A stretch of DNA of 64,000 nucleotides from Acidobacteriota bacterium. GTDB taxonomy: Bacteria > Acidobacteriota > Terriglobia > Terriglobales > Acidobacteriaceae. Below, one piece after another: positions 42,919-53,918 of the stretch (position 1 is the stretch's first letter; every line of letters starts with the position of its first letter). The position numbers were made by a program, and so were the translations under genes. The stretch lies in NCBI GenBank assembly GCA_013289685.1, contig JABCZL010000020.1, positions 1 to 64,000 of the forward strand, given 5' to 3'. Below the pieces are notes generated by a model, which made no database searches, had not been told where the DNA came from, and saw only the letters and a list, made by a program, of their open reading frames with translations.

Positions 42919-43137
42919 ATGCCACGCAAGCGCACCGTCAAACTCCGCTGTCCCATCTGCAAGGAGTCCGTCAAAAGCACCGACCCGGACTTCCCTTTCT
43001 GCAGCGGTCGCTGCCGCCTCATCGATCTGGGCAAGTGGGCCAGCGGTGGCTACGTGATCTCGTCTCCCGTAACCGACGCTGAGGAAGCAATCCGAGATCG
43101 CAATCCCGAAGAGCAGGATCAAAAGGACGAATCGTGA
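42919..43137 (+). CDS. yacG: YacG-family DNA gyrase inhibitor
   Basis: 72 residues. Four-Cys zinc finger CPIC...FCSGRCRLIDLGKWASGGY is diagnostic for YacG, which binds GyrB. Acidic tail. Its stop overlaps the next start (GTGA), so it is translationally coupled to the RAYT gene, which has probably inserted directly behind it. Confidence 0.93.
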   Translation: MPRKRTVKLRCPICKESVKSTDPDFPFCSGRCRLIDLGKWASGGYVISSPVTDAEEAIRDRNPEEQDQKDES

Positions 43138-43182
43138 AGCTCGATCTCAGCCTTGCGGACAGCAGCGCCACGCCGCCGGACC

Positions 43183-43229
43183 GTAGCGCCGGCGTCCCGC
43201 CGGCTGTCGCGGGGGCGTCCCGCCCGCGC
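43183..43229 (+). repeat. REP copy 1, inside the RAYT coding start
   Basis: GTAGCGCCGGCGTCCCGCCG followed by GCTGTCGCGGGGGCGTCCCGCCCGCGC. It has two hairpins (GCCGGCG-TCC-CGCCGGC and GCGGG...CCCGC). Translated in frame as RSAGVPPAVAGASRPR. Confidence 0.85.
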
Positions 43230-43820
43230 TTCGGCGAGGTCACGATCCGCGACCGTGGCCGCCTCCCCCACTGGGAAAAAGAATCCGCGACCTACTTCAT
43301 CACCTTCCGGCTAGCTGATTCCCTGCCTAAATCCGTTCTCGATCGCATCGAATCGGAACGCGATGCCATTGTCAAGACGGCAAAGCAACTCCACCGCGAT
43401 CTCAGCCCCGACGAGCGCCGGAAGATCCAGCGTCTATCCTCCCCGATCGTCGAAAAATATCTCGATAGCGGCGCAGGCGCATGTCGCTTGAAGAATCCCA
43501 CCATCGCGGAAGAGGTAGCCAACACCTTGCGGCATTTCGACGACCAGCGCTACCGCCTCTTTGCCTGGTGCGTCATGCCCAATCATGTGCACGTAGTCGT
43601 CCGGCTCCTTCCCGGCCAGGAACTCGCAAAAGTGATTCATTCGTGGAAATCATTTACCGCAAAACGGGCGAACGCGATCCTCGGGTTGCACGGCACGTTC
43701 TGGCAAAGAGAGTACTATGACCACCTGATCCGAAACGAAAGCGAATTCGAACGTGCAGTTCAGTATGTGGCGGACAATCCGATAAAAGCGAACCTGAAAG
43801 ATTGGAAATGGGTTTGGGTG

Positions 43821-43866
43821 TGCGGGCGAGAGGCCCCCACGACAGCCGCCGAGGACGGCGGCGCTA
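43821..43866 (-). repeat. REP copy 2, inverted, at the RAYT 3' end
   Basis: The reverse complement reads GTAGCGCCGCCGTCCTCGGC then GGCTGTCGTGGGGGCCTCTC and so on, same family as copy 1 but diverged. It covers the last codons of the transposase. Confidence 0.8.
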
Positions 43867-43888
43867 CAAAACCCAGCGGCTCGTAAAT

Positions 43889-44449
43889 ATGTCCAGCCCA
43901 CCAGAACCCGCCATCGGTGCCGCCTCCGACCGTAGCGCCGGCGTCCCGCCGGCTGTCGCGGGGGCGTCCCGCCCGCGCGCGGCGCTATGGGCGACGCTGG
44001 TCGCAACGTTCTTCGGAGTAGGCCGCCTGCACCCCGCACCTGGCACGTGGGCATCGGCCGCCACGGTCCTGATCTGGGCCGCAGTCGCGCATCAGTTATC
44101 GCCCGCGCTGCGGACGCCAGGCGCCGTCGCCTTGGCCGCGCTGGTCACGCTCATCGGTATCCCCGCCGCCACTCGCGTCGCGCGGGCCTCAGCCTTGAAG
44201 GATCCGCAGTTTGTCGTGATCGACGAGGTTGCCGGACAACTGATCGCGCTGATCGCCGTCCCCCTGGCGTGGAAAACTTTCCTCGCCGGTCTTATACTTT
44301 TCAGAGCCTTCGACATCGTCAAGCCGCCTCCGGTACGCCAACTGGAGAGACTTCCAGAAGGCACCGGGATCGTGCTCGATGATGTGGCGGCAGGAATCTT
44401 CGCATTCCTGGCAATGCATCTCGTGCTGCACTTTGGGCTACTAAGTTAG
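43889..44449 (+). CDS. pgpA: Phosphatidylglycerophosphatase A with a REP-encoded N-terminal segment
   Basis: 186 residues from ATG 43889. The enzyme core begins near residue 32: LWATLVATFFGVGRLHPAPGTWASAATVL, then VVIDEVAGQLIALIAVPLAWK, a helix FLAGLILFRAFDIVKPPPVRQLERLPEGTGIVLDDVAAGI. These match PgpA, which dephosphorylates phosphatidylglycerophosphate. The first 31 residues include ASDRSAGVPPAVAGASRPR, translated from a REP, nearly identical to the start of the neighbouring RAYT. No ribosome site precedes the ATG, so the native start may have been displaced by the REP. Confidence 0.9.
   Translation: MSSPPEPAIGAASDRSAGVPPAVAGASRPRAALWATLVATFFGVGRLHPAPGTWASAATVLIWAAVAHQLSPALRTPGAVALAALVTLIGIPAATRVARASALKDPQFVVIDEVAGQLIALIAVPLAWKTFLAGLILFRAFDIVKPPPVRQLERLPEGTGIVLDDVAAGIFAFLAMHLVLHFGLLS
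43932..43978 (+). repeat. REP copy 3, inside the pgpA coding start
   Basis: Identical along its whole length to copy 1 as far as I can read. Translated in the same frame as copy 1. Confidence 0.85.
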
Positions 44450-46999: not shown

Positions 47000-47071
47000 A
47001 GCTCCTAGCTACTAGCTTCTAGCTGTTGGCTGCCCAGGGGTTGACTTGCTAGAAGCTAGCAGCTAGGAGCT
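47000..47071. repeat. Inverted repeat AGCTCCTAGCT...
   Basis: Arms 47000-47023 and 47048-47071, 23 of 24 matching, with a 24-base loop, filling the cinA-thpR gap. The arms consist of tandem variants of TAGCT. It could form a strong stem, as terminator or mobile hairpin. Confidence 0.75.
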
Positions 47072-47083
47072 ATTAGCTGTTCC

Positions 47084-47671
47084 ATGCGCCTCTTCATCGC
47101 TCTCGACATCGACGACGCCATCCGCGAGCGCATCGCCCGCTTCGTGGAAGGAGTGAGTGGGTTTGCGCCCGACGCGCGCTGGGCGAAGCCGGAATCCATG
47201 CACGTCACCTTGAAGTTCATTGGCGAGCCACCGGAGCCTGCGGTCGACCAGATCAAGCAGGCACTAGCAACCGTCGTATCCTCGGCGGCCGACATTCACT
47301 TCCGCGGCTACGGATTCTTCCCTACCGCGAAATCGGCCCGCGTATTCTGGATCGGCGTCGAGGCTGGCCCGGAGCTCGCAGCCCTGGCGGCGGCGGTCGA
47401 TGCCAAGATGGCGTCCCTAGGAATTCCAAAAGAAGACCGATCCTTCAGTCCACACCTGACGCTGGCGCGCGGCGCAGGCTCTTCCGGTTCGCCGCACCGC
47501 AGCAAAACGGACGCCCCGAATCACAACTTCCACCGCCTGCAGGGAAAACTGACCGCCCTGTCCACCCCGGATTTTGGTACCATGACAGCCCGCCAGTTCT
47601 TTTTGTACCAAAGCCAACTCTCCCCGAAAGGATCGAAGTACACGAAGCTAGCGGGATTCGCGTTACAGTAG
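47084..47671 (+). CDS. thpR: RNA 2',3'-cyclic phosphodiesterase (2H family)
   Basis: 195 residues. Two HxTx motifs, HVTLKFIGEPP at 45 and HLTLARG near 125, spaced as in the family. It opens 2',3'-cyclic ends of RNA. Start MRLFIALDIDDAIRERIARF is typical. Follows cinA through an inverted repeat. Confidence 0.93.
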   Translation: MRLFIALDIDDAIRERIARFVEGVSGFAPDARWAKPESMHVTLKFIGEPPEPAVDQIKQALATVVSSAADIHFRGYGFFPTAKSARVFWIGVEAGPELAALAAAVDAKMASLGIPKEDRSFSPHLTLARGAGSSGSPHRSKTDAPNHNFHRLQGKLTALSTPDFGTMTARQFFLYQSQLSPKGSKYTKLAGFALQ

Positions 47672-47714
47672 CGCCGGCGTCTCGCCGGCTGTCGCGGGGG
47701 CGTCCCGCCCGCGC
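47668..47714 (+). repeat. REP copy 4
   Basis: GTAGCGCCGGCGTCTCGCCG and onward, differing from copies 1 and 3 by one visible base. It begins inside the thpR stop codon and fills the thpR-plsY gap. Confidence 0.85.
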
Positions 47715-50449: not shown

Positions 50450-50495
50450 GCGGGCGGGGACGCCCCCACGACAGCCGCCGAGACGGCGGCGCTAC
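50450..50495 (-). repeat. REP copy 5, inverted
   Basis: Reverse complement GTAGCGCCGCCGTCTCGGCG then GCTGTCGTGGGGGCGTCCCC and so on. It lies after the deacetylase stop codon. Confidence 0.8.
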
Positions 50496-52643: not shown

Positions 52644-52693
52644 GTGTGGCGGCGAGGACGCCGCCACGACAGCCGGCGGGACGCCGGCGCTAC
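52644..52693 (-). repeat. REP copy 6, inverted
   Basis: Reverse complement GTAGCGCCGGCGTCCCGCCG then GCTGTCGTGGCGGCGTCCTC and so on. It lies just past the end of the MFS gene at 52701. Confidence 0.8.
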
Positions 52694-52700
52694 GAAACCT

Positions 52701-53918
52701 TCACAGCGCGGCCACTCGTCGCTGCACCAGCAGAAAATACGCCGCCACTAGAACCAGCACCAGCCCGTTCACACCCAACACGATCGGTGCGGTGAACATT
52801 GGAACGAGCCATCCCGACAGCAAGTTGCCCATCGGCATGCCCCCGCGGAAAGCGAAGTTGTACACGCTCATTACCCGTCCGCGCATTTCATTGGTGATGA
52901 TCAATTGTACGAGCGACGTCATCGTGGCAAACACCGCCATCATCGAGGCTCCCACCACCACCAGCGTGGCATAGCTGACGGGCAAAGACTTCGACAGGGA
53001 GAAAACCGCAATCCCCGCGCCCAGGCAGATCAGCATCAGCAGCGCGAACCGTCCCTTGCTGCGCATGTTGCCCAGCCCCGCGATCGCCAGCGATCCACAA
53101 ATCGATCCCACTCCCATCAGCGACAGCAAATTCCCGTAGGTCTCTGGCCCGCGATGAAAAATATCTTTCACGAACACGGGTATGTACGTCCGCATCGGCA
53201 TGGCCAGGAATGTCATTAGGAACGCCAGCACGATCAGTCCCACCATCGAGCCCTGGTGCCAGATGAACTTGATCCCCTGCGTCAGGCTTTTGTACATCGA
53301 CTGCTTCGTATTTTCCGGCACGAATCGCGATGAGATCATCGACAGCGAAATGATCGGTGCCAGAAACGAAAGTGCATTTAGTCCGAAGCACCACTTTTCT
53401 CCCAGCTTCGCCAGCGTGATCCCGGCCAGCGCCGGCCCCACCGTAACCGCCAGATTGAACTGGATCGAGTTCAGCGCAATTGCGTTCGGCATGTCCTCCT
53501 TGTCGACCAGAGTCGGAATCAGCGCCGAATACGCAGGGCCGCCAAACGCCTGCGCCAGTCCCGACACGAATGACAGACATAGGATCGGCCACACATGGGT
53601 CAGCCCCATGGCCACCAGAACTGTCAGCGTCCCCGCGCTCGCCATCTGCAGCCACTGCGACACCAGCAGAATCTTCCGGCGCTCGGTGCGGTCCGCCACC
53701 ACGCCGCCGATGATCGTAAACAAAAAGATGGGAAGCCCCGCCAGAAACTGATCCAGCCCCAGCAGGCGGGCGGAATGGCTCAGCCGGTAGATGAGCCAGC
53801 CCTGCGCCACGATCTGCATCCAGGTGCCGATGCTGGACGTGCAGGCGCCGATCCACATGAGGCGGAAGTCGCGATAGTGAAATGCCTTGAAGATTCTGCG
53901 AAGTGTCGGCGTTGGCAT
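52701..53918 (-). CDS. MFS transporter (EntS-like)
   Basis: 405 residues, 12 predicted helices. Start FHYRDFRLMWIGACTSSIGTWMQIVAQGWLIYRLSHSA, loop motif GGVVADRTERRKILLVSQ. Same broad MFS_3/EntS group as 28175 but clearly distinct. Substrate unknown. Flanked on its 3' side by a REP. Confidence 0.88.
   Translation of the reverse strand: MPTPTLRRIFKAFHYRDFRLMWIGACTSSIGTWMQIVAQGWLIYRLSHSARLLGLDQFLAGLPIFLFTIIGGVVADRTERRKILLVSQWLQMASAGTLTVLVAMGLTHVWPILCLSFVSGLAQAFGGPAYSALIPTLVDKEDMPNAIALNSIQFNLAVTVGPALAGITLAKLGEKWCFGLNALSFLAPIISLSMISSRFVPENTKQSMYKSLTQGIKFIWHQGSMVGLIVLAFLMTFLAMPMRTYIPVFVKDIFHRGPETYGNLLSLMGVGSICGSLAIAGLGNMRSKGRFALLMLICLGAGIAVFSLSKSLPVSYATLVVVGASMMAVFATMTSLVQLIITNEMRGRVMSVYNFAFRGGMPMGNLLSGWLVPMFTAPIVLGVNGLVLVLVAAYFLLVQRRVAAL

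Follow-up and report, generated by a model that had tools for sequence, protein, structure and literature searches.

Here, we show that two neighboring genes of an Acidobacteriota bacterium each hold a repetitive extragenic palindromic (REP) element of the GTAG type within their coding sequence. The genes encode a REP-associated tyrosine transposase (RAYT) and PgpA and lie in a 64,000-nucleotide stretch of contig JABCZL010000020.1 (assembly GCA_013289685.1, positions 1 to 64,000), which we refer to as the window. The arrangement is probably best explained by a REPtron, that is, a RAYT gene with flanking REPs, residing within the 5' codons of pgpA in a yacG-pgpA operon, where the RAYT captured the pgpA start, was lost from some relatives with PgpA remaining in frame, and left a REP that is kept as a DNA repeat. 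Comparison of relatives indicates that the GTG at the yacG stop serves as the start of pgpA where the RAYT is absent and of the RAYT where it is present. The left REP would then form an N-terminal leader of the RAYT and an inverted REP part of its C terminus. We propose that the RAYT was acquired before the sampled species diverged and was passed on vertically from then on. Recombination or slippage between the direct REPs would have removed it on several occasions and, both REPs being in one phase, would have left PgpA in frame with a REP scar. The REP-encoded peptide would be translated as a tolerated disordered leader rather than an adapted protein segment, and translation of PgpA may be coupled to the end of RAYT translation. 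The features of the locus are as follows.

42919..43137, + strand: yacG, encoding a small zinc-finger protein (Pfam YacG, 60.6 bits); its TGA overlaps the RAYT start as GTGA
43134..43886, + strand: RAYT gene (Pfam Y1_Tnp, 42.3 bits)
43179..43229, + strand: left REP, RAYT codons 16-32 (DRSAGVPPAVAGASRPR), GTAG foot at 43183
43822..43867, - strand: inverted, diverged REP through which the RAYT C terminus reads as CGREAPTTAAEDGGAT; 87% match to the left REP
43889..44449, + strand: pgpA, with its ATG 2 nt past the RAYT stop (Pfam PgpA, 141.6 bits, for the open reading frame [ORF] read from 43802)
43928..43978, + strand: right REP, PgpA codons 14-30, identical to the left REP

A preliminary description of this DNA had placed the same stretch near both N termini, and this proved correct: the 51-nt segment GACCGTAGCGCCGGCGTCCCGCCGGCTGTCGCGGGGGCGTCCCGCCCGCGC at 43179-43229 and 43928-43978 is identical at 51/51 positions and encodes DRSAGVPPAVAGASRPR, residues 16-32 of the RAYT ORF (from GTG 43134) and 14-30 of the PgpA ORF (from ATG 43889). 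The two copies had also been described as lying in the same reading frame, which holds for the phase in which the REP is read but not for the absolute frames of the two ORFs, which differ. Since, in addition, the REPs are spaced by 749 nt, which is not a multiple of 3, the common phase belongs to each junction and not to one long frame. The REP has a GTAG at its foot and folds as a double hairpin (folding z of the left REP, -2.6 for the + strand and -1.3 for the - strand). With up to 3 mismatches allowed, its 22-nt core matches the genome at 96 sites and the reversed control at none; together with the double hairpin, this argues that the likeness to REPs is not due to chance. The RAYT C terminus is likewise REP-derived, by way of the inverted copy. 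The transposase itself scores 84.8 bits against the NCBIfam family REP_Tyr_transpos (NF047646; cut-off, 80), and its best solved relative is TnpArep (PDB 4er8, E = 1.9e-07). The HuH motif and the tyrosine are conserved: H151, H153, Y211, and N215 are invariant in 6/6 sequences, and Y211 is, from its spacing, presumably the catalytic tyrosine. The RAYT is the single copy of its type in this genome (one 100% match; two others at 29-36%), and an AlphaFold model built with 6 sequences had a mean predicted local distance difference test (pLDDT) score of 36.9 and was uninformative.

The nearest named records are Candidatus Sulfotelmatobacter and other Acidobacteriaceae, Acidobacteria, and Terriglobia metagenome-assembled genomes. 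Among 61 genomes searched, PgpA was found in 59 and the REP core (at most 1 mismatch) in 28, this genome included. yacG lies upstream of pgpA in 34 of 36 genus loci, and the remaining two (G019 and G012; G, L, and C numbers are our labels, G000 being this genome) start near a contig end. Judged from these sequences, yacG-pgpA is the basic gene order in the peat and soil relatives (Candidatus Sulfotelmatobacter and neighbors). In many genus loci, the first codon at which pgpA could start is an in-frame GTG at the yacG stop. The outgroup PgpAs of Granulicella (L218) and Edaphobacter (L221) begin with GTG, followed by a short N terminus without REP, and that of Granulicella rosea (L219) starts with ATG. 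The GTG at the yacG junction probably represents the ancestral pgpA start.

A close RAYT lies between yacG and pgpA at 10 loci (G000, G004, G018, G019, G023, G025, L181, L191, L193, and L199), in one of which (G019) the gene is split over two contigs. All 10 RAYTs carry the REP peptide in their N terminus, in the same phase and with the start at the yacG junction, and in 6 of the 10 loci the PgpA behind the RAYT carries a REP as well, after a new pgpA start. These comparisons suggest that the RAYT is nested at the 5' end of pgpA and uses its start, with GTG 43134 being the former pgpA start; this nesting would explain why REPs stand side by side in the RAYT and PgpA. In a few loci, the contig ends too close upstream for a RAYT to be seen there, and G001, G011, G028, and G029 have an inverted REP between the genes without a RAYT body. 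A clear REP peptide, defined by a local score of at least 39, with at most 1 in 200 shuffles equally good, was present in PgpA at 20 of 63 scored loci. The other 43 had none at this cut-off, though some keep remnants (L206, 1 mismatch in the DNA core). Scoring left out G041 and G043 as well as 40 more distant loci (L216-L255); in the latter, inspection of the PgpA N termini by eye showed no clear REP peptide.

The N-terminal REP of the RAYT carries an extra insert in G023, G025, and L181. At L101 (G023), L100 (G025), L040, L046, and L051, several of the locus REPs are interrupted by a second short sequence, which encodes SSGQAAG-like residues. At L102, in a genome of the same class but another family (G059), a more distant RAYT (~57% identical) has a same-phase REP just before its first ATG, an arrangement that suggests a possible route by which the fused RAYT N terminus arose.

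Two pairs of related genomes each include one member without the RAYT, in which PgpA begins with the RAYT N terminus and the point of fusion falls within the REP. G016, the sister of G004 (support 1.00), lacks the RAYT. The stretch of its pgpA from the GTG through the REP is the same as in the G004 RAYT gene (96/96 nt), and the sequence that follows aligns to G004 pgpA, differing at 2 of 60 nt. Together, these two alignments leave out the RAYT and share 54 nt, which is essentially the REP. L197 stands in the same relation to L191 (overlap, 52 nt; tree support, 0.97). G004 and G016 differ in length by 724 nt, which is not a multiple of three, but as the direct repeats are read in one phase, such a loss would be harmless to the PgpA frame. 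Elsewhere in the G016 assembly there is no close RAYT (3 matches, 33-34% identity), which argues against a collapsed repeat. The PgpA N terminus of G014, also RAYT-less, carries the SSGQAAG insert of the RAYT N termini in two of the three surrounding RAYT-bearing genomes. In a FastTree tree, G016, L197, and G014 nest among RAYT-bearing genomes, so that loss is the simpler reading for these three. Pairwise identities of RAYT and PgpA are correlated (r = 0.79, 36 pairs of 9 genomes; 0/5000 label permutations as high), as would follow from inheritance of the RAYT along with the locus and in agreement with passages of PMC8049555 that describe RAYTs as single-copy and vertically inherited.

Alternatively, REPs might have inserted independently and repeatedly at one spot of pgpA, with repeated arrival of the RAYT there. 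We consider this unlikely. The patchy distribution on the tree and the presence of the REP core in 28/61 genomes speak for it, but the divergence of the RAYT follows that of PgpA, and the upstream linkers of RAYT-less PgpAs match the RAYT linkers of related genomes. Moreover, both locus REPs of G019 share a variant absent from its three other exact copies, although this variant also occurs in the pgpA REP of G011 and in two other REPs of G000.

The RAYT GTG is preceded by AAGGA six bases upstream. As the preliminary description had remarked, PgpA lacks such a ribosome site before its ATG; no Shine-Dalgarno (SD)-like word occurs within the 20 nt upstream. The same description had allowed for the annotated starts having been pulled into the REPs, in which case both REPs would be 5' untranslated and both proteins would begin past them. 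The text of PMC3733652 that deals with N-terminal REPs warns that many reflect misannotated starts, two of 12 in-gene REPs in this genome (in a PPIase-like and a PPDK-like gene) look 5' untranslated, and 5 of the 20 REP-bearing PgpA loci have one or two possible starts (ATG, GTG, or TTG) between the REP and the ATFFG motif. However, no in-frame ATG, GTG, or TTG occurs between the REP and the conserved domain in either the RAYT or PgpA here, which makes mis-set starts unlikely, and 15/20 REP-bearing PgpA loci likewise have none before ATFFG. The RAYT GTG, furthermore, has its SD-like AAGGA and overlaps the yacG stop. Untranslated REPs therefore appear very unlikely to us, and the suspicion about the starts is not upheld. 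Translation of the REP in both RAYT and PgpA is the probable outcome of this start codon survey, with rare start codons as the remaining escape in this genome; a PgpA or RAYT peptide containing AGVPPAVAGASR would mark a translated REP. In an AlphaFold model of PgpA, residues 1-30 have a mean pLDDT of 46-59 per ten-residue block, the first helix starts at residue 33, and the segment encoded by the right REP is a low-confidence coil.

Synonymous sites provide insight into why the REP persists. In the RAYT gene, the proportion of synonymous differences (pS) was 0.039 in the REP versus 0.685 in the body (15 pairs of 6 loci), and the REP lay below every body window in 15/15 pairs; in pgpA, the values were 0.082 and 0.610, with the REP below every body window in 34/36 pairs. 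This test used 6 of the 10 RAYT loci, leaving out G019 (split gene) and G023, G025, and L181 (REP length changes), and those 9 of the 20 REP-bearing PgpA loci that have an ungapped full REP next to the domain. The RAYT body, near saturation at synonymous sites, is itself under strong constraint, with a ratio of nonsynonymous to synonymous substitution rates (dN/dS) of 0.06-0.12 in the 11/21 pairs with computable dS. Frozen synonymous sites are not explained by selection on the peptide, implying that the element is kept as a DNA repeat; by this measure, the REP persists as DNA, conserved beyond the need of the peptide, and peptide exaptation is not supported. That the REP was exapted as a peptide with a selected function in RAYT and PgpA, exaptation having been proposed at the outset, is the least probable of the alternatives: the same phase and site recur in many species (20/63 PgpA loci and 10/10 RAYTs at the locus), but conservation extends to synonymous sites, beyond any peptide role (REP pS of 0.04 versus 0.69 for the RAYT body), 43/63 PgpA loci have no clear REP peptide, 4/10 RAYT loci have no REP in PgpA, and the segment is a low-confidence coil in the PgpA model. 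The left and right REPs show 0/51 differences in G000, G019, and L199, which suggests local copying between the two, as does the variant shared by both REPs of G019, although that variant recurs in G011 and G000 and the left and right REPs differ at 2-3 of 51 positions in G004, G018, and L191. Persistence of the REP may be due to selection on the hairpin, to selection on a RAYT site, or to copying between REPs.

Several observations weigh against a nested REPtron that was inherited vertically, lost in frame, and kept as DNA. RAYT-bearing loci, 10 in all, occupy scattered positions on the tree, and supports are low around L195/L199 (0.03 and 0.44) and around G000/G019/G021 (0.12 and 0.43); such weak nodes do not fix the number of RAYT losses, and some repeated gain at a hotspot may have occurred. 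In G023, G025, L181, and L193, PgpA has no REP, so that an exact REP-by-REP loss is unavailable there; G014, nested among three of these four, itself has a REP-bearing PgpA. The RAYT is frameshifted while PgpA is intact in G023 and G025, and a broken RAYT frame with intact pgpA suggests that coupling is not strictly needed. Some PgpA body windows are as low in pS as the REP in the pairs G004/G016 (34/125) and G004/G019 (3/125), and the left and right REPs differ at 3, 2, and 3 of 51 positions in G004, G018, and L191, respectively. Finally, metagenome assemblies make up most of the named relatives, and an assembly can be broken at a REP (the G019 locus is divided between two contigs at the RAYT).

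It is tempting to speculate further, if only tentatively, that the phase-matched REPs make the RAYT a removable cassette, which borrows the host start, ties pgpA translation to its own (TAA-AT-ATG, no SD), and leaves by REP-by-REP recombination, while a need of the RAYT for its site keeps the REP codons near-identical. If the RAYT does need the REP site, it would be a domesticated transposase that embeds its recognition site in host coding sequence.

Of the 96 REP cores in the genome, 69 are intergenic, 15 overlap a gene end, and 12 lie inside genes as called by a home-made codon-usage scorer, not Prodigal; 12 of the 69 intergenic cores fall in the longest-start version of a called ORF. At 14/15 gene ends, the REP foot supplies the stop of the upstream gene (13 TAG, 1 TAA), one of them in the window, which holds three further REPs.

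47668..47714, + strand: REP whose TAG is the stop of thpR (47084-47671; gene name by sequence reading)
50457..50495, - strand: intergenic copy of the REP family
52656..52694, - strand: intergenic REP, its foot ~7 nt past the stop of an MFS-like gene (52701-53918; name by sequence reading)

Among the stop-site genes outside the window, 11 of 13 were compared (C18:57623 and C32:10477 dropped out), using 30 loci returned by the match search and 40 more that were fetched, and their C termini are mostly unchanged in REP-free relatives. Insertion of REPs after a preexisting GTAG, which would account for the TAG stops, was considered and rejected as unproven: some REP-free relatives do end in G-TAG, but REP-free ends overall are not enriched for it, with 13/60 versus 50/270 in the background (naive P = 0.31).

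Two of the 12 apparent in-gene REPs, at the N terminus of the PPIase-like protein and the 5' end of the PPDK-like gene, were dropped as probable 5' untranslated sequence. Both genes have a Met between the REP and the conserved part, and in the PPIase-like gene, the one compared with relatives, stops occur between REP and Met in G018 and just upstream in G004. The 10 remaining cores lie inside 9 conserved genes, which, RAYT and PgpA aside, encode a PIG-L deacetylase, an RNase R-type RNB protein, an FG-GAP/ASPIC protein (two cores), an FAD-linked oxidase, a Der/EngA-type GTPase, a 2-oxoacid acyltransferase, and a MoaD-MoaE fusion. In these seven, the REP cores are outside the best-scoring Pfam stretches shown; all seven have at least one REP-free ortholog (best match with more than 6 mismatches) among five or six relatives each, and six, all but Der, have at least one ortholog with a REP (at most 4 mismatches).

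The MoaD-MoaE protein is encoded by a single ORF (L165:11774-12550; G000 C12:150373-151149), with the REP in the linker just past the Gly-Gly end of MoaD. The fusion is found in relatives both with and without the REP. In the Der/EngA-type GTPase (L162:1865-3436; G000 C9:121864-123435), the REP encodes part of the linker between the G domains, and among seven genomes compared only this one has it, G021 showing a weak match with 6 mismatches. Two repeats of other kinds were also noted: a run of TTTGTCATTCCGAACTC units downstream of the gene after pgpA at L032 (G019), which belongs to another repeat family, and a 24-bp nearly perfect inverted repeat (96%) just after cinA (47000-47071), unlike the REP.

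The related species provide evidence that a coding REP is maintained at the DNA level, with its peptide as no more than a passenger, which offers an alternative to peptide exaptation. They also show how capture of a neighbor's start codon could allow a domesticated transposase to remain in an operon. The in-frame REPs, which some relatives have and others lack, further constitute a set with which to explore what determines the sites at which a REP can be translated.

Previous work has described REPs in coding sequence, REPs within RAYTs, and TAG stops supplied by REPs, as parts of PMC3733652 and PMC6006769 document. As far as our literature search shows, the capture of a host start by a RAYT, the phase-matched REP pair, the in-frame loss scars, and the frozen synonymous sites appear to be new; a RAYT using the start of its neighbor, or a REP in pgpA, was not found in the open-licence literature, searched by titles and abstract openings. 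In the relevant passages of Di Nocera et al. (2013, PMC3733652), GTAG-footed REPs lie within ORFs of known proteins, often as donors of TAG stops, and overlap the 5' and 3' ends of RAYT genes, with flexible linkers suggested as tolerated sites. The present locus resembles these cases in its REPs within ORFs, TAG stops, and REPs overlapping the RAYT ends; start capture, a phase-matched pair, and an in-frame loss scar are features of the locus described here that those passages do not contain. They deem most N-terminal cases misannotation, while citing expressed ones from Rickettsia, and the start codons here argue otherwise.

The tnpAREP genes of subclass 2.4, as portrayed in sections of PMC6006769, share an in-frame REP inside the RAYT itself. 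Here, by contrast, the REP is N-terminal, an inverted copy is C-terminal, and a twin lies in the next gene. Rickettsia palindromic elements, to judge from their citation in PMC3733652, are similar in being in-frame palindromic repeats in many functional proteins, but they are a different sequence class, whereas the elements described here have GTAG feet and a RAYT, and their hosts are soil Acidobacteriota. A parallel to the proposed losses that those portions of PMC3733652 offer is the deletion of the REPtron in Escherichia coli, where absence of the RAYT from some relatives is likewise explained by deletion; in contrast, the joint here would lie inside a coding REP and rebuild the host ORF.
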